A stretch of DNA of 61,012 nucleotides, taken from Candidatus Omnitrophota bacterium (GTDB lineage: Bacteria > Omnitrophota > Omnitrophia > Omnitrophales > JACROU01). Every line of letters starts with the position of its first letter. The first letter of the stretch is position 1. This document shows positions 19,785 to 57,188 of this stretch, one piece after another. A program made the position numbers and the translations under genes. The notes under the pieces were generated by a model. It was not told the DNA's origin and ran no database searches. It worked only from the letters and a program-made list of their open reading frames with translations. The DNA lies in NCBI GenBank assembly GCA_016214265.1, contig JACROU010000078.1, positions 1-61,012 on the forward strand. Reading direction: 5' to 3'.

Positions 19785-19863
19785 CGTGAGCCGTGGACCG
19801 GGTACCGTGAACCGGAAAAGAAACCGCTTTTTTTCGGATCACGGATCACGGATCACGGTCCAC
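19785..19863. repeat. Heptad hairpin element between nuoD and nuoH
   Basis: The left arm holds four degenerate heptamers CGTGAGC, CGTGGAC, CGGGTAC, CGTGAAC (19785-19812); the right arm has GGATCAC three times then GGTCCAC (19836-19863), with about 23 bases between. The arms can pair imperfectly. It lies inside the nuo operon and is the same family as the elements at 28702, 33031/33426 and 55695. Confidence 0.8.
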
Positions 19864-28695: not shown

Positions 28696-29313
28696 ATGAA
28701 TCGTGGACCGTGGACCGTGGACCGTGGGTTGCTGCTGATTTTGGTGCTGACGGTGGGTTTAGCTATTCCCGCGTGCGGCAAGAAAAAAGATAAGACGGAT
28801 ATCATTGCCGATCTGGAATCCAAGCCCGTGGTGACGGAAGTAAAGTCCGAAGCCAAGCCGGCGGCGGAAGAAAAGAAAGAGGCGGAACCCAAGGTCGTGG
28901 ACAACAGTCCGAATCCGGTTTCGACAGACATTCAGCCCACGCAAACACCTGTGCCGTCAACGTCGGCAACGCCTGCTACAACTCCGACTCAAGGCTATGA
29001 AGTATCTGCACAGAAAGTGGGGGCTCCGTCAGTTCCATCAGCTCCCGGGGTACCTCAAGTGCCGGCTGTGCCGCAGACGCCGGCGCCATATCCGCCGTAT
29101 CAGGGGTACAAAGCGCCGCAGCAGGGAGCCGCCTCGCCGTATTCGAATCCTTACGGAGCGCCTCCGCCCAATCCTTATTACGGGGGATACACTCCGCCTC
29201 AGAAATACAAAGCGCCGGGTCCGATTGAATCCACTGGCGAATTTATCGGTCATCTCGTCAATCCGTTCAAACGCAAGGAAGATGAGAGCAAGAAAACCTA
29301 CAAGGGAATTTAA
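28696..29313 (+). CDS. Proline-rich lipoprotein with repeat-derived N-terminus
   Basis: A 205-residue predicted lipoprotein: hydrophobic segment about 11-24 and a lipobox-like IPAC with Cys27, followed by Lys/Glu-rich (30-75) and then Pro/Tyr/Gly-rich low-complexity sequence (95-190, PPYQGYK, PPPNPYYGGY). Such tails are usually disordered and may reach through the cell wall. The N-terminal MNRGPWTVDRG is encoded by the heptamer repeat 28702-28727, so the charged n-region of the signal peptide comes from a repeat. The stop overlaps the glycosyltransferase start by one base. Function unknown. Confidence 0.75.
   Translation: MNRGPWTVDRGLLLILVLTVGLAIPACGKKKDKTDIIADLESKPVVTEVKSEAKPAAEEKKEAEPKVVDNSPNPVSTDIQPTQTPVPSTSATPATTPTQGYEVSAQKVGAPSVPSAPGVPQVPAVPQTPAPYPPYQGYKAPQQGAASPYSNPYGAPPPNPYYGGYTPPQKYKAPGPIESTGEFIGHLVNPFKRKEDESKKTYKGI
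28702..28727. repeat. Single heptad arm inside a coding region
   Basis: CGTGGAC three times in tandem followed by CGTGG. It is the same unit as the heptad hairpins elsewhere but without a right-hand arm, and it is translated as part of the lipoprotein N-terminus. Confidence 0.75.
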
Positions 29314-31095: not shown

Positions 31096-32169
31096 ATGGC
31101 AAACGCAACGATTCAAGAAAATACAATATTACCTTCCCAGGTAAGCAAGAGGCTTTTCGAGGATGTCCGTTCGCTTATCGAGCAGTCCCGCGGACGGGTA
31201 GCCCAGTACGTCAATTCGGAGCTTGTGATGTTGTATTGGAAAGTAGGGCGGCGAGTGCGCAAAGATATATTGGGAAATGAGCGTAGTCCTTATGGAAAAG
31301 AAATTGTCCAGACAGTGTCTGGACAATTAGTGGCAGATTATGGAAAAGGGTTTAGTCGAAGCAATTTGTTTAATATGGTTCGTTTCTCAAATATTTTCCC
31401 TAAACCGGGAATTGTCGCGACACTGTCGCTCCAATTGGGCTGGAGTCATTTTATCGAGATTATTCCAATTGAAGATTCTCTTAAACGCGATTTTTATTCT
31501 GAAATGTGCCGTATTGAGCGATGGAGTGTCCGGACACTGAGAGCCAAAATCGACAGCATGCTTTTCGAGCGTACCGCCCTTTCGAAGAAACCAAAGAAAC
31601 TCATTCAACAGGAAATCGATACGCTGAGAAAAGAAGATCAGATGACGCCCGATCTTGTTTTTCGGGATCCGTACTTTCTGGATTTTCTGGGATTGAAAGG
31701 TTCTTTCAGTGAAAAAGATGTTGAATCGGCAATCTTAAGAGAGCTTGAAAAATTCATTTTGGAACTCGGAACAGATTTCACTTTTGTGGATCGTCAGAAA
31801 CGGATGACAATTGGCGGGGAAGATTTTTATCTGGATTTGCTTTTTTATCACCGCCGGCTCCGGCGATTGGTTGTTTTTGAATTGAAGCTCGGGAAATTTC
31901 AGGCGGGGGATAAAGGGCAAATGGAACTTTATTTGAGATGGCTGGAAAAGTACGAAAAACGTGAAGGGGAGGAGTCTCCGTTGGGTTTGATTCTGTGCAG
32001 CGAGAAAAGCCAGGAGCAAGTTTCATTGCTGAAGTTGGATCATGGCGAGATTCGGGTTGCGGAGTATCTCACAGAACTACCGTCTCAAGAGGTCTTCGAA
32101 AAGAAACTTCATGATGCGATTTCGATCGCGAAAGAACAATTGACGGTCAATGGGAAAGGGTCTTCATGA
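31096..32169 (+). CDS. YhcG/DUF1016-type PDDEXK nuclease in the SOS operon
   Basis: A 357-residue protein with the DUF1016 N-terminal helical domain (about 15-160; LIEQSRGRVAQYVNSELVMLYWKVGRR) and a C-terminal PDDEXK nuclease domain (about 185-335). FYLDLLFYHRRLRRLVVFELK supplies the Asp and the ExK pair, so the active site looks intact. Family members are linked to DNA processing and defence islands; the substrate is not established. No Shine-Dalgarno precedes the ATG, which is almost at the predicted transcription start, so it is probably read from a leaderless mRNA. Its stop overlaps the lexA start (ATGA). Confidence 0.88.
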   Translation: MANATIQENTILPSQVSKRLFEDVRSLIEQSRGRVAQYVNSELVMLYWKVGRRVRKDILGNERSPYGKEIVQTVSGQLVADYGKGFSRSNLFNMVRFSNIFPKPGIVATLSLQLGWSHFIEIIPIEDSLKRDFYSEMCRIERWSVRTLRAKIDSMLFERTALSKKPKKLIQQEIDTLRKEDQMTPDLVFRDPYFLDFLGLKGSFSEKDVESAILRELEKFILELGTDFTFVDRQKRMTIGGEDFYLDLLFYHRRLRRLVVFELKLGKFQAGDKGQMELYLRWLEKYEKREGEESPLGLILCSEKSQEQVSLLKLDHGEIRVAEYLTELPSQEVFEKKLHDAISIAKEQLTVNGKGSS

Positions 32170-32750
32170 AACAAATCGGATCCACTCAAAAACATATTCT
32201 GGAATTGATCAAAGACTTTTCGGCGGCGGAGGGCTATCCGCCAACGGTGCGGGATATCGCGAAGGTGCTTAAGCTCGCGGTCAGTACGGTGCATGAGCAT
32301 TTGGCGAAATTGCGGGAGAAGGGACTTTTGAGGCATGAAGCGGGGCGGTCTCGCGGTGTGTGGTTTTCGGGAAGACGGGAGGCGGTGGAGCTTCCAATCG
32401 TCGGTCAAATAGCTGCGGGCCGTCCTATTCTTGCCGTGGAGGAAAAGCGCGATTGGGTTCCGCTTCCGAAAGATTTGGTGGGCGGGGGCGACTTCATTAT
32501 TCAAGTGAAGGGTGACAGTATGACGGGGGAAGGGATTCACGATGGAGATCATGTTGTCATTCGCCAACAGGAGACGGCGGCTGACGGAGACATTGTGGCC
32601 GCGCTAATCGACGAAGAAGTCACACTCAAAACAATTTATAAGAAAAAAGATTATGTCATTTTAAAAGCAGCCAATCCCAAATATGACGATTTGAAATATC
32701 CAAGCATAAAAATTATCGGGAAATTGGTGGGCTTGTTTCGTAAATACTAA
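32166..32750 (+). CDS. lexA: LexA repressor
   Basis: A 194-residue SOS repressor. The N-terminal winged helix (about 1-65; PPTVRDIAKVLKLAVSTVHEHL) binds the operator, and the C-terminal S24 peptidase domain cuts itself when RecA is active. The cleavage bond is Ala84-Gly85 (IAAGRP), with catalytic Ser118 (GDSMTG) and Lys155 (EVTLKT). It is the second gene of the operon whose promoter holds a matching LexA box, so it controls itself. Translationally coupled to the nuclease gene by a 4-base overlap. Confidence 0.96.
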   Translation: MKQIGSTQKHILELIKDFSAAEGYPPTVRDIAKVLKLAVSTVHEHLAKLREKGLLRHEAGRSRGVWFSGRREAVELPIVGQIAAGRPILAVEEKRDWVPLPKDLVGGGDFIIQVKGDSMTGEGIHDGDHVVIRQQETAADGDIVAALIDEEVTLKTIYKKKDYVILKAANPKYDDLKYPSIKIIGKLVGLFRKY

Positions 32751-32779
32751 TCAACAATCAATAAGGAGGGGTTATGGTG

Positions 32780-33025
32780 ATGGAAGTCGCTGAAAAAATC
32801 GAAGTGGGGGCTATTTTTAGACGAGGGCATGTGAAACCGGTTTGGTTTATTTGGAAAAGCAGGCGGCATTCCGTCAAAGATGTCACTTACGAATGGCATG
32901 AAAAACGGGGTGAGAATTTTCTGCACTATTTCCAGTTGGTTGCGGAAGAGGGGATTTACAAAGTCAGCCTTGATTCCAAATGCCTCAGTTGGAATCTTGA
33001 GAAGGTTTATGACGATGTAGCTTGA
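32780..33025 (+). CDS. Small conserved protein of lexA-dinB operons
   Basis: An 81-residue soluble protein rich in aromatic residues and beta-prone (VKPVWFIWKSRRHSVKDVTYEWHEKRG...HYFQLV). Proteins of this kind are often encoded between lexA and a Y-family polymerase; no biochemical role is known to me. AGGAGGGG sits 9 bases before the ATG at 32780, so I prefer it to the ATG at 32774, which is too close. A 30-bp inverted repeat starts 6 bases after its stop. Confidence 0.7.
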   Translation: MEVAEKIEVGAIFRRGHVKPVWFIWKSRRHSVKDVTYEWHEKRGENFLHYFQLVAEEGIYKVSLDSKCLSWNLEKVYDDVA

Positions 33026-33030
33026 AAACC

Positions 33031-33060
33031 GTGAACCGTGGTCCGTGGACAGTGAACCGT
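33031..33060. repeat. Left 30-bp inverted repeat of the S23 element (heptad arm)
   Basis: Heptamers CGTGGTC, CGTGGAC and AGTGAAC within a 30-base block that is the exact reverse complement of 33426-33455. It lies between the small SOS gene and the S23 gene. Confidence 0.92.
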
Positions 33061-33066
33061 GAATTG

Positions 33067-33426
33067 ATGAAGATACAAAGCTACAAGGATCTCAATGTTT
33101 GGAAAAAGGGGATAGAAATAGTAAACCTTGTTTATGATTTGTCAGAAAAATTTCCGAATCAGGAAAGGTTTGGTTTGATATCTCAAGTGCAGCGTTCGGC
33201 CGTTTCAATCCCTTCTAACATTGCAGAAGGTTTTTCTCGGCAGCATACAAAAGAGTATCAGCAATTCTGTTACATCGCGCTTGGTTCTTGTGCGGAGCTG
33301 GAGACTCAAATGATAATCGCGAAATTTCGCGGGTTTGTAGAGAAAGAAACATTCGCCAAGTTAGAGGAATTTTTGAATCATGAGAGTAGGATGTTGGAGA
33401 ATCTAATAAAAAGCTTAAATCGTTAA
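33067..33426 (+). CDS. S23 four-helix-bundle protein (23S rRNA intervening-sequence family)
   Basis: A 119-residue all-helical protein with the family signature SIPSNIAEGFSR followed by KEYQQF and GSCAELETQ. These proteins were first found encoded in intervening sequences within 23S rRNA genes; their molecular role is unclear. Here the gene sits inside an SOS operon and is tightly enclosed by perfect 30-bp inverted repeats: the right one shares the last base of the stop codon. The ATG at 33067 gives the normal start. A TTG at 33022, overlapping the upstream stop, is in frame and would add a repeat-encoded peptide. No good ribosome site is seen, so translational coupling is possible. Confidence 0.88.
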   Translation: MKIQSYKDLNVWKKGIEIVNLVYDLSEKFPNQERFGLISQVQRSAVSIPSNIAEGFSRQHTKEYQQFCYIALGSCAELETQMIIAKFRGFVEKETFAKLEEFLNHESRMLENLIKSLNR

Positions 33427-33455
33427 CGGTTCACTGTCCACGGACCACGGTTCAC
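33426..33455. repeat. Right 30-bp inverted repeat of the S23 element
   Basis: Exact reverse complement of 33031-33060. In the operon mRNA the two would form a 30-bp stem with the S23 gene as the loop. No target-site duplication is visible outside the pair. Confidence 0.92.
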
Positions 33456-33471
33456 AATCCACGAGTAATCA

Positions 33472-34746
33472 GTGCTTACCCGAAAATCCATTACTTATGA
33501 CCGGAGTGATTCACCTCCTGAAATAAACCGCATCATCTTCCATGCGGATATGGACGCGTTTTTTGCGTCCGTGGAGCAAAGCGCGAATCCATTGCTTCGC
33601 GGCAAACCGGTACTGGTGGGCGGGCATTCGCTGACACGCGGGGTGGTAACCACCGCCAGTTATGAGGCCCGGCCTTACGGGATTAAAGCCGGGATGAGTT
33701 TGGGGGAGGCGCGGCGGTTGTGTCCTCACGCCATTATCGTTCCCGCCGACAGCGGCAAATACGTTGAAACCTCGCAGGTCATTTTTTCAAAACTCCGTCA
33801 ATATACTCCGCTGGTGGAGGTGTTTTCGATCGACGAAGCATTTTTGGATGTGACTGCGACATTCCGTCATTTCTTTAAAACCCCGGAGGATTTGGCTCTT
33901 CATCTTAAATCCTGGGTGACGAAACAATTCCGGATTACGATGTCCGTCGGCATCGCGTCGAACAAGCTTCTTGCCAAATTGGCCAGCGATGTTCGTAAGC
34001 CCAACGGCCTTTTCCGCATTCATCATGAGAGGATTTCCTCTTTTCTCGAAAAACTTCCTGTCGAAACATTGTGCGGTATCGGACCTTCTCTGAAAGAGCA
34101 TTTGCATGGAATGGGAGTGCGCACTTGCGGGGAATTAGGCCGGTTTTCCGAACATCTTCTTTTCGAACGATTCGGCGTGATTGGTCCCGTGCTCAAAAAT
34201 ATGGGGATGGGGATAGATCACGCTCCAGTGATGCCGGCCGATGCGCCTGATATTACCAAATCGATGGGGCATTCCTACACGCTGTTGGAAGACATTTTTG
34301 AATTACGCGACGTGAAAAAATATTTGCTTTGGCTGGCTGAGCGCGTGGGCCGGCGTCTTCGGAGGGAAAATTTTCGCGGCTGTGTGGTGCATTTGTGGAT
34401 CCGTTACGGTGACCGGAGTTCATTCGTTCGTCAGCGCGCCTGCCATTATGATTTGGATGATGGGCAAGATATTTATCACGAGGCGCTTAAAATTTTCGGA
34501 GGTTCCGGTTCTGTGTGGAAAGAAAAGGGGGTCCGCGCGCTGGGGGTCAGTGTTTCCGGTCTCAGACAATCAGGGCATGAACTCTGGCTTCTGGAGGAAT
34601 ACGAAAAACACCGACGTCTCCGGAAATCGTTGGATGCGATTAACGATAGATTTGGTGAATTTACCGTAAAACCGGCCTCCATCAATTTTAAGGGTGATGA
34701 TAAAGCAGAAAGCGATGTGATTGATTTGTTTGGATCAGGGAAATAA
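33472..34746 (+). CDS. dinB: Y-family translesion DNA polymerase IV
   Basis: A 424-residue error-prone polymerase. The palm has FHADMDAFFASVEQ and the catalytic SIDEAFLDVT, then RKPNGLF and helix-hairpin-helix LCGIGPSLKEHL (about 200-215), with the little finger beyond 240. All three metal-binding acidic residues are present, unlike inactive ImuB proteins. It ends with a hydrophobic VIDLFGS tail that may be a clamp-binding motif. GTG 33472 is the assumed start, 16 bases after the right repeat, with no clear ribosome site; the insertion may have changed its original leader. Confidence 0.93.
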   Translation: MLTRKSITYDRSDSPPEINRIIFHADMDAFFASVEQSANPLLRGKPVLVGGHSLTRGVVTTASYEARPYGIKAGMSLGEARRLCPHAIIVPADSGKYVETSQVIFSKLRQYTPLVEVFSIDEAFLDVTATFRHFFKTPEDLALHLKSWVTKQFRITMSVGIASNKLLAKLASDVRKPNGLFRIHHERISSFLEKLPVETLCGIGPSLKEHLHGMGVRTCGELGRFSEHLLFERFGVIGPVLKNMGMGIDHAPVMPADAPDITKSMGHSYTLLEDIFELRDVKKYLLWLAERVGRRLRRENFRGCVVHLWIRYGDRSSFVRQRACHYDLDDGQDIYHEALKIFGGSGSVWKEKGVRALGVSVSGLRQSGHELWLLEEYEKHRRLRKSLDAINDRFGEFTVKPASINFKGDDKAESDVIDLFGSGK

Positions 34747-54614: not shown

Positions 54615-57188
54615 ATGAGAAAAATCTTTACCTTCCTAACGTTATTCTTCTTCACGGCCAACACTTTGGTGTGGGGGGCTCCGGCAGATGCGGCTACTTT
54701 GCTGGCCGGCACTTCGCGCTCTGAAGGCGACTTTGCCATTATTCATATTCAGGACGCGCATTCCAATTATGAAGTGCAGAAAAGCATTCGCGAAATTTTG
54801 TCGCATCTTCATGACGATGAAGGTGTTAGTTTCGTCGCGCTCGAGGGTGCCTGGCAGCCGCTCGCTCCCAATGTTTACCATTTTTTTCCGGATGCAAAAT
54901 CTAATCTTAAAGTTGCCGATTATTTGGCGCAAAAAGGGGAAATGTCGGGCGCGGAACTGTACGCGCTCGAGTTGTCAGTAGGAGCGGTTCGCGAACCGCC
55001 CGTACACTTCGAGGGTGTCGAAGACGCGAAAATTTATCGCGAAGATTACGAGCTTTTCAAAAAAGTACTGGCTAGGCAGGACGAAGTTAAAAAATATTAT
55101 GATGATCTGTTTGCGAAACTGGATGTTGAAAAGTCCAAAGTCTACTCTTCTGAATTTTTAAGATTCGACCGGAATATCCGCGATTACGAAAATAAGCATC
55201 TTGAACTCGCGGCTTTTTTGAGAATTCTCGAGAAATCCGCGAAAGAAAAACTTCAAACAGAATTAACCAGCCCCGATAATCAGCGCGAATGGCCATATCT
55301 TTGCCGTATGCTTCGGGTCATGAATGCTTCGCAGGGATTGAATATGAAGGCGGTGGAAAAAGACGCCGCGAAACTCTGTATTGATTTGAACGATAAATCT
55401 CTTGCGGCCAATCCCCGCGGATTTTTCGAATCCGTTTACTTGGATTCCCTCAATAAGGGTATGCCTCTCGATGGCTATCAAGCCTTGCGTCAATATTCCG
55501 AGCATCTCATTCTCAAAAGCGAAATCATCGGCCCGGAACTTTTTGCGGAAATGGATTCATTGATCGGCAAGCTCTCCAATGCTTATGCCGCGAACGCGAA
55601 GGAAAAGGAACTTCTGAATCGTTCCCGCGAAGCGCGACTTACCGAGAAACTTTTGAAATTTGAGGCGACAGGGAGGGAATGGCAAGAATATTCTCGTGAG
55701 CCGTGGTCTGTGTACCGTGGTCCGGTTCACAGTTCACTGTCCACGGTCCACGAAACAGCTTTTCGATTTTACCAACTCGCCGAACAACGCAACCAAATCC
55801 TTCTCGACAACACGCTCGCGAAAATGAAATCGCGCGGCGTGAAAAAAGCCGTTCTCATTACCGGCGGATTTCACTCGCGGGGGATCGAAACTTTAGCGAA
55901 ACAGAAAAACATTTCGTACCGCACTATTCAACCGAAAATTCGCGAAGAATTTTCAAATCAGCGTTATCGTGATGCTGTCCTCGGCACTTGGTGGCGAAAA
56001 ACGGCTGAATCAAAAATTCCAAAACCGCTTTGGATGGTGCAAGAGCCTGACGATGCTGTTGAGCGCTCGAAGATCATAAGGATTGCCATTGCACAAATGT
56101 CACGAGCCGCTTCTCTTGGTCAGCAGATTCCAAACGCAAATACTCACTCGCTTATCCAACCACTTACGGAAGCTGAATCCCATCAGTTGGCTGAACGGGT
56201 TCTCGTAAAATTACACGGAACAAAATTCACCGAGCACGAACCCATCATTGTCAACGGCCGGCGATTTGGTTTTGAATCTGACCAAGAATTTGATCCGGCC
56301 GATCCATGGTTTGCTCTTTCCCGCATCATTCGTCTTGGTCCGCTGGTTTTTGTTGTCATTTCGCGGAGATTTGACGCTGCTGCTGTTGAACGGAAAGTCG
56401 GCTTGATGAAACAGACGCTGGGTGATGTTTTTGCCAGAAATTCCGGAAATATATTTTTTATTCAACCGACATCAGACGGAACCGAGACAAATAAAATGCC
56501 TCTAAGTCCATACTCGCGTTCCATGATTGCGGCGATGCTGGCGTACCCGGAAAAATTTAAGGGTGCCATTGCAGCTGATTTTGGTGCTGGCGACGGATTG
56601 CTTTCCCGTATCGCTCTGGGGCTTGGCGCGAAACAAGTATTTTTGATCGAAAGGGATGCTGTGAATTCGAGGATAGCCGAAGCGTTTTTACGGCAGGATG
56701 GCCGCGATAATTTCATTATTTCATCCAACGATATTACTTCGCAGCAATTCGAAACCTTTTCGCGAGAATATCAGTTGTCAGAAAAAGTAAATGTGGTGCT
56801 TGCAAACTTGGGGCCCTGGAAACATTACGGAGATGCTAATCAGCAAGTTTTGAATTTTATTGCTCGATGGAAAAATATTGAATTGCTGATTAACGGAGGG
56901 TATGGATTCCCAGAAGGCTGGATCGGAAAAGCGGGACTTCTTTTAAAGGGATTGTGGCATGTCAGTCATGAGCCCGCGTTCAAGATCGCAAAACAAAATC
57001 TTGAAAAAAATCTTTTTCTGACAGTTCTAACGCTCGCGGACGCATTCTGGATGAAATCACGCGGGCGCATTCACCCGAGGAAGCTGCCGAGGGGCTTAAA
57101 CAATTGTCCGCGATTTTGGCCGCGGAAGCTGAAACCGAATTCCGCCAGGGAGAGGATGACGGTTACAATCGTCCGGGACCTGATGTGA
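54615..57188 (+). CDS. Giant exported multidomain protein, N-terminal part (frameshifted)
   Basis: This part has 857 codons. A signal peptide (MRKIFTFLTLFFFTANTLVWG) leads into a domain (about 25-440) with IIHIQDAHSNYEVQKSI and, much later, AVLITGGFHSRGIETL; His-containing motifs spaced like this are reminiscent of ChaN/Tiki-type folds, but I cannot assign a family. A methyltransferase-like Rossmann domain follows (about 640-800: ADFGAGDGLLSRIALGLGA). A heptad repeat is translated in frame at 55695-55752. After about 57010 the frame loses coding character (MKSRGRIHPRK...), while another frame carries the obvious continuation, so the true protein probably runs on from there. The ATG at 54615 fits the signal peptide and the promoter. 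Confidence 0.75.
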   Translation: MRKIFTFLTLFFFTANTLVWGAPADAATLLAGTSRSEGDFAIIHIQDAHSNYEVQKSIREILSHLHDDEGVSFVALEGAWQPLAPNVYHFFPDAKSNLKVADYLAQKGEMSGAELYALELSVGAVREPPVHFEGVEDAKIYREDYELFKKVLARQDEVKKYYDDLFAKLDVEKSKVYSSEFLRFDRNIRDYENKHLELAAFLRILEKSAKEKLQTELTSPDNQREWPYLCRMLRVMNASQGLNMKAVEKDAAKLCIDLNDKSLAANPRGFFESVYLDSLNKGMPLDGYQALRQYSEHLILKSEIIGPELFAEMDSLIGKLSNAYAANAKEKELLNRSREARLTEKLLKFEATGREWQEYSREPWSVYRGPVHSSLSTVHETAFRFYQLAEQRNQILLDNTLAKMKSRGVKKAVLITGGFHSRGIETLAKQKNISYRTIQPKIREEFSNQRYRDAVLGTWWRKTAESKIPKPLWMVQEPDDAVERSKIIRIAIAQMSRAASLGQQIPNANTHSLIQPLTEAESHQLAERVLVKLHGTKFTEHEPIIVNGRRFGFESDQEFDPADPWFALSRIIRLGPLVFVVISRRFDAAAVERKVGLMKQTLGDVFARNSGNIFFIQPTSDGTETNKMPLSPYSRSMIAAMLAYPEKFKGAIAADFGAGDGLLSRIALGLGAKQVFLIERDAVNSRIAEAFLRQDGRDNFIISSNDITSQQFETFSREYQLSEKVNVVLANLGPWKHYGDANQQVLNFIARWKNIELLINGGYGFPEGWIGKAGLLLKGLWHVSHEPAFKIAKQNLEKNLFLTVLTLADAFWMKSRGRIHPRKLPRGLNNCPRFWPRKLKPNSARERMTVTIVRDLM
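55695..55752. repeat. Heptad hairpin translated inside a coding region
   Basis: Left arm CGTGAGC, CGTGGTC, TGTGTAC, CGTGGTC (55695-55722); right arm GGTTCAC, AGTTCAC, TGTCCAC, GGTCCAC (55724-55751). It keeps the reading frame open and encodes REPWSVYRGPVHSSLSTVH within the giant protein. Confidence 0.82.
57004..57010 (+). other. Likely one-base frameshift in an A7 run
   Basis: Adding a single A to this run of seven A residues joins the upstream frame (…NLEK) to the downstream frame (KSFSDSSNARGRILDEI…) without loss of sequence. The frame downstream has no stop to the end of the window. A sequencing or assembly error in a homopolymer, a real mutation or programmed slippage are all possible. 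Confidence 0.65.

Follow-up and report, generated by a model that had tools for sequence, protein, structure and literature searches.

A probable mobile cassette in an operon spacer of an Omnitrophota bacterium: an S23 gene between inverted arrays of a lineage-specific heptamer

The intervening sequence (IVS) of the Coxiella burnetii 23S rRNA combines a 28-bp terminal stem, an open reading frame (ORF) of the S23 family and, just 5' of this ORF, tandem GACAGAT heptamers in variable copy number; the ORF has been considered dispensable and unlikely to be expressed (PMC4990558). REPIN elements and RAYT (TnpA-REP) offer a second related arrangement, in which one gene is flanked by inverted palindromic repeats and many gene-less copies are found in the genome (PMC3116915, PMC8266576). 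Here we analyzed contig JACROU010000078.1 of a Candidatus Omnitrophota bacterium (assembly GCA_016214265.1, the source genome, G000 below); the window is this whole stretch of 61,012 nt, and it holds an S23 gene enclosed by inverted heptamer arrays, upstream of dinB. This feature is probably a copy of a mobile intercistronic cassette, consisting of an S23 gene between inverted arrays of a lineage-specific heptamer and accompanied by dispersed S23-less derivatives. The cassette in the window has the following parts:

33031 to 33063, + strand: 5' arm, an array of the heptamer units GTGAACC, GTGGTCC, GTGGACA, GTGAACC and GTGAA (inverted-repeat alignment)
33067 to 33426, + strand: gene of the S23 / 23S_rRNA_IVP four-helix-bundle family
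33423 to 33455, + strand: 3' arm, reverse complement of the 5' arm (inverted-repeat alignment)

From an ATG at 33067 to a TAA at 33424-33426, the S23 gene encodes 119 aa that match the S23 / 23S_rRNA_IVP profile PF05635 at positions 1-105 of 106 (E=1.1e-37; 129 bits versus a cut-off of 33.8), that is, over the whole domain and above the gathering cut-off; TIGR02436 is matched as well (E=3.7e-35), and in Pfam only PF05635 was found. According to a profile match of the genome, this is the sole S23 gene detected in the source assembly. The arms, 33 nt each, are 97% complementary (32/33) and perfect across 30 nt, and are built of tandem 7-nt units with the consensus GTGGWCC; their Smith-Waterman score is 61, versus a 99th percentile of 28 in 605 random windows of the same length. 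The outer end of the 5' arm lies 6 nt past the stop codon of an 83-aa gene, and the 3' arm starts within the S23 stop codon, with one further degenerate unit extending to 33463. A preliminary description of this DNA had reported the S23 gene at these positions and a perfect 30-bp inverted repeat around it; both were confirmed, the repeat reaching 33 nt with one mismatch. An Rfam search found no family. Its one weak match, CRISPR-DR8 under the cut-off, lies inside S23 coding sequence at 33202-33241 and is probably due to chance; it covers the codons of the conserved S23 motif IPSNIAEGF, which hold a small palindrome (CCTTCT...AGAAGG).

The 23S rRNA IVS shares with this cassette an S23 ORF within a terminal inverted repeat of ~28-30 bp, a total length of ~430 nt, tandem heptamers beside the ORF and a presence that varies among relatives. 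In contrast, the window cassette occupies a spacer between protein-coding genes of an operon, outside the 23S rRNA gene, its heptamers form both arms, and S23-less copies of its heptamer are dispersed in the genome; moreover, S23 of Flavobacterium is under strong purifying selection, unlike the expendable Coxiella ORF. By analogy, S23 cassettes may be regarded as akin to rRNA intervening sequences. As to the intervening-sequence-like element that had been proposed for the window, the inserted cassette, the S23-IVS anatomy and the relatives without an S23 cassette agree with it. A location inside 23S rRNA was rejected: of the S23 loci fetched (L039-L248), none showed similarity to 23S rRNA.

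The cassette shares with REPIN and RAYT a gene bounded by inverted repeats of which gene-less copies are scattered in its own genome. S23 differs in not being a tyrosine (Y1) HUH transposase, and its arms are lineage-specific tandem heptamers varying by locus, with no fixed GTAG or CGTC tag. The short tandemly repeated repetitive (STRR) heptamers of cyanobacteria are described as direct arrays; S23 genes occur on cyanobacterial plasmids. Both the STRR and the TAACTGA heptamers of Beggiatoaceae (PMC4679880) resemble the arrays studied here in being genome-specific tandem 7-nt intergenic repeats, although TAACTGA is described as forming direct arrays (PMC4679880) and the papers found draw no link to S23. 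Avd, from diversity-generating retroelements, has a four-helix fold homologous to S23 (PMC10053308), and sequence matches of S23 in PDB are structures 2GSC and 2RLD; the cassette differs in holding no reverse transcriptase and no template or variable repeat, and S23 has lexA, the 83-aa gene and dinB as its neighbours, no search having been made for a reverse transcriptase farther away. Neither does it hold a transposase domain (Pfam, NCBIfam), as an autonomous DNA transposon would.

The anatomy described above is not particular to the window. The comparison covered ~100 S23 regions fetched within the phylum and 80 loci fetched across the whole of GTDB, most of the genomes being drafts; we applied an inverted-repeat score cut-off of at least 30, chosen in this analysis, with an arm detection that is register-tolerant in periodic DNA. 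By this measure, 75% of the 122 S23 genes of the phylum and 60% of the 85 from many phyla are enclosed by inverted heptamer arrays, compared with 0.7% of windows drawn at random from these loci and 2% of ORFs of at least 150 aa; flanking repeats like those first noticed in the window thus recur around other S23 genes. Within the arms, identity at lag 7 was 0.70 (phylum) and 0.63 (many phyla), and ~0.25 at most lags other than multiples of 7. S23 with inverted heptamer arrays therefore appears to be the usual layout of a small, apparently unrecognised mobile cassette of many bacterial phyla, and in the open-access literature we found no paper linking S23 genes generally to such arrays; these genes are common, and their annotation is limited to 'four helix bundle protein' or to the rRNA context. 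A simple transposon family with fixed ends was rejected because the arms differ between loci. Phage cargo was also rejected as an explanation, no S23 matches being present in phage records, and a rule of one heptamer per genome holds only partly, since different heptamers are often found when a genome has several S23 genes.

Where both neighbours lie on one strand, S23 has their orientation in 154 cases and the opposite one in 2, the gene calls being a simple longest-ORF selection. The arms typically start on the upstream stop codon or close to it and finish shortly before the next start codon; the Flavobacterium heptamer, TAGTNAT, itself provides stop codons. The cassette would lodge after the stop codon of one gene and before the start codon of its downstream neighbour, S23 reading in operon direction, and because of this position both genes would stay intact. 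The operons that hold S23 cassettes include gmk-nadD, sdhA-sdhB, hemC-hemE and fad genes (names by sequence reading). The link to the SOS operon drawn in the preliminary description is consequently not supported: since S23 cassettes sit in many other operons, the SOS location of the window cassette is incidental.

The sense orientation (154:2) also favours an explanation at the RNA level, as put forward in the preliminary description, according to which a long stem of the transcript would be cut by RNase III, freeing the S23 mRNA and parting the upstream and downstream cistrons. The predicted RNA fold of the cassette is strong (-158.1 kcal/mol, z -7.3, with the arms fully paired in all 30 pairs), and RNase III cuts the rRNA IVS of Coxiella, which likewise has a terminal stem, heptamers and an S23 ORF (PMC4990558). 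However, pairing selected in the sense RNA should give more G.U-type than A.C-type mismatches between the arms, and we counted 218 G.U-type versus 252 A.C-type (38 versus 47 for arms of at least 85% identity); with no G.U excess, RNA-pairing selection on the arms is not supported. Because the tRNA control is small (11 versus 5 in 28 tRNAs), this result is moderate evidence only; it suggests that the arms are kept alike at the DNA level, as binding-site arrays, by conversion or through recent insertion, and it is compatible with RNase III cutting of the transcript. On balance, we consider the RNA-level explanation unlikely.

Gene and arms are co-inherited. Heptamer similarity climbs with S23 protein identity (Spearman 0.23), being 3.12 at 40-50% identity and 4.27 at 60-70%, and this correlation is seen in the S23 sense only (antisense 0.007). 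For 155 pairs at 60-70% S23 identity with no homologous neighbours, heptamer similarity was 4.26 versus 3.05. Since the heptamer tracks S23 similarity even where the neighbouring genes differ, S23 and its arms travel together.

The S23-less copies are genome-specific. Arrays of an element's own heptamer lacking S23 were 21-fold denser in its own genome than in other genomes; 42 of the 89 elements had at least one of them in the same genome, of which a few kb were sampled, versus 5 expected, and the S23-less hairpins keep the arm polarity of the S23 cassettes in 22/22 cases. Whole-genome counts were made as overlapping 21-mers, separate sites being fewer: GTGGWCC arrays occur at 47 places in G000 and at 0 in both G001 and G002, genomes of the same family, and arrays of GTGAGTC, the heptamer of the S23 of G002, occur at 53 places in G002 and at 0 in G000 and G001. 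Genomes G042, G030, G050 and G027 also score in these counts. A 20-nt version of the array is matched at 42 places of G000 with at most 3 mismatches, and most of the S23-less hairpins read in this genome lie between two genes. These data tie S23 to genome-specific heptamer palindromes, and recognition of its own heptamer is its candidate function.

Presence of the cassette changes between relatives. At gmk/nadD of Flavobacterium, 72 spacers were classified and a tree of gmk+nadD was built with 69 species. The spacers are compact (4-60 nt), hold an S23-less hairpin of one of several repeat types (~65-116 nt) or hold an S23 cassette (423-530 nt); in addition, L336 has a cassette shortened to 162 nt, and five species (L273, L278, L279, L280 and L296) have long unrelated inserts of ~570-600 nt. 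S23 presence changes 14 times on the tree, shuffled labels giving a mean of 14.6, and the sister species L299 and L301, which are 93.5% identical, differ in it. Between species with gmk+nadD at 79-87% identity, S23 DNA can be 91-95% identical; in the pairs L320/L242 and L316/L242 the cassette shows 92-98% identity in most 60-nt bins versus 75-88% just outside, and this rise starts and stops at the cassette ends, so that the transfer tracts end at the arms. Slow S23 evolution does not explain such identity, since S23 is on average just as diverged as the host genes when every pair is counted (0.79 for both). Flavobacterium S23 is under purifying selection, with a median ratio of nonsynonymous to synonymous substitution rates (dN/dS) of 0.10 (NG86; many dS >1). 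Another palindrome type (GAGACGCGATTAATCGCGTCTC), also tandem, is seen in the gmk/nadD spacer of L331, L322 and L334.

A dN/dS of 0.10, together with arms that persist while synonymous sites saturate, would also suit a gene that is resident in the host and regulates itself, its S23 protein binding the flanking arrays as operators that control the operon; S23-less arrays could then be extra target sites of a regulon. This is nevertheless quite improbable, given that S23 turnover at gmk/nadD is as fast as shuffled labels, that related genomes differ in their sites (1 common between the G000 and G001 hairpin sets) and that related arms go with S23 in unrelated operons. Very improbable is a passive origin, in which slippage and quasipalindrome correction by template switching create spacer hairpins and S23 genes survive in the loops by chance: the lack of G.U bias in the Watson-Crick arms is what template-switch correction would produce, and hairpins are found in a genome without S23 (G001), but it leaves unexplained why S23 among all genes is enclosed (75% versus 2%), the lateral transfers whose breakpoints lie at the arms and the same-genome copies of one heptamer.

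If the cassette is mobile, as we favour, S23 and its arms would move as a unit, also laterally between species, and the short S23-less hairpins scattered in the same genome would be non-autonomous derivatives, similar to REPINs or to miniature inverted-repeat transposable elements (MITEs). Judging from the co-variation and the genome-specific copies, an S23 oligomer would bind its own heptamer arrays at the DNA level and, once bound, would promote the capture or copying of whatever lies between such arrays; host recombination or replication enzymes are invoked for this step because S23 has no recognised catalytic domain. S23 would also act in trans on the S23-less hairpins.

Several observations weigh against a mobile cassette. 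No nuclease, transposase or polymerase domain is recognised in S23 (Pfam, NCBIfam), no excision or transposition was observed, and a target duplication was not found, the empty sites compared being too divergent to determine one. There is no burst of S23 transposition, since copies inside one Flavobacterium genome are old and divergent (at most ~53% identical, with the best match usually in another species), and the exchange at gmk/nadD might proceed via the arms by short-tract homologous recombination, not by insertion of an element. The tracking of S23 by the heptamer is also explained by mere co-inheritance, with no binding needed, and 11-40% of S23 genes, depending on set and cut-off, have weak or undetectable arms. 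Finally, heptamer hairpin families can exist or persist without S23, as seen in G001; because this genome keeps a heptamer family with no S23 gene detected, the dependence of hairpins on S23, if real, is not absolute.

A broader proposal, which is possible and which we advance only tentatively, is that S23 is the specificity and mobility factor of widespread cassettes free of transposase and nuclease, each lineage reading its own heptamer and mobilising S23 genes and S23-less hairpins, enclosed by inverted heptamer arrays, into operon spacers; rRNA intervening sequences would be the special case having a ribosomal RNA helix as target. The present data link the intervening sequences of rRNA to palindromes dispersed between genes and could account for the heptamer repeats that separate reports describe in other bacteria, and both the role of S23 and the movement of intervening sequences become directly testable in cultured Flavobacterium.

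The genes around the window cassette are the following:

32166 to 32750, + strand: lexA, upstream gene of the host operon (TIGR00498 above cut-off)
32774 to 33025, + strand: 83-aa conserved partner gene, directly 5' of the cassette (conserved near dinB in G001 and G050)
33472 to 34746, + strand: dinB (DNA polymerase IV), directly 3' of the cassette (PF00817, NF002677)

This gene order, all on the + strand, is in line with the earlier statement that the cassette separates lexA and a small partner gene from dinB. The 83-aa gene, with no match in Pfam or NCBIfam, also stands beside lexA and dinB in G001 and in G050, a genome of the same phylum. Only three comparisons were usable at this site: in G050 the 83-aa gene and dinB are nearly adjacent (~20 nt), with no hairpin and no S23; in G001 they are ~130 nt apart, with an S23-less hairpin of a different heptamer (AGTCRGA); and in G002 the 83-aa gene no longer adjoins dinB. 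Relatives carrying S23 here minus the repeats, a finding that would have spoken against the preliminary description, were looked for and did not appear. AGTCRGA arrays occur at 30 places in G001, 1 in G000 and 0 in G002. Among the sites fetched, the one between the lexA partner and dinB is the single hairpin site common to the G000 and G001 sets, and an ancestral genome-wide hairpin set common to both was rejected on this ground; as it is the only one, independent insertion or chance coincidence at this site is possible. In G002, 3' of the 83-aa gene (locus L036, ~1750-2000), a MITE-like palindromic repeat of another kind (TGTCATTCCTGCGAAAGCAGGAATC...) is present.

Elsewhere in the window, the GTGGWCC heptamer is found as follows:

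19793 to 19863, strand not assigned: S23-less hairpin between two co-directional ORFs
55700 to 55754, strand not assigned: S23-less hairpin in a long open frame (locus L017, 345-2958)
28696 to 28730, + strand: single non-inverted array at the start of a lipoprotein-like ORF

Around the hairpin at 19793-19863, the upstream ORF ends ~44 nt before the centre and the downstream ATG lies ~48 nt after it, while that at 55700-55754 is apparently within coding sequence. The array at 28696-28730 (GTGGACC) gives the lipoprotein-like ORF its start codon and its first residues, MNRGPWTVDRG, a heptamer array turned coding.
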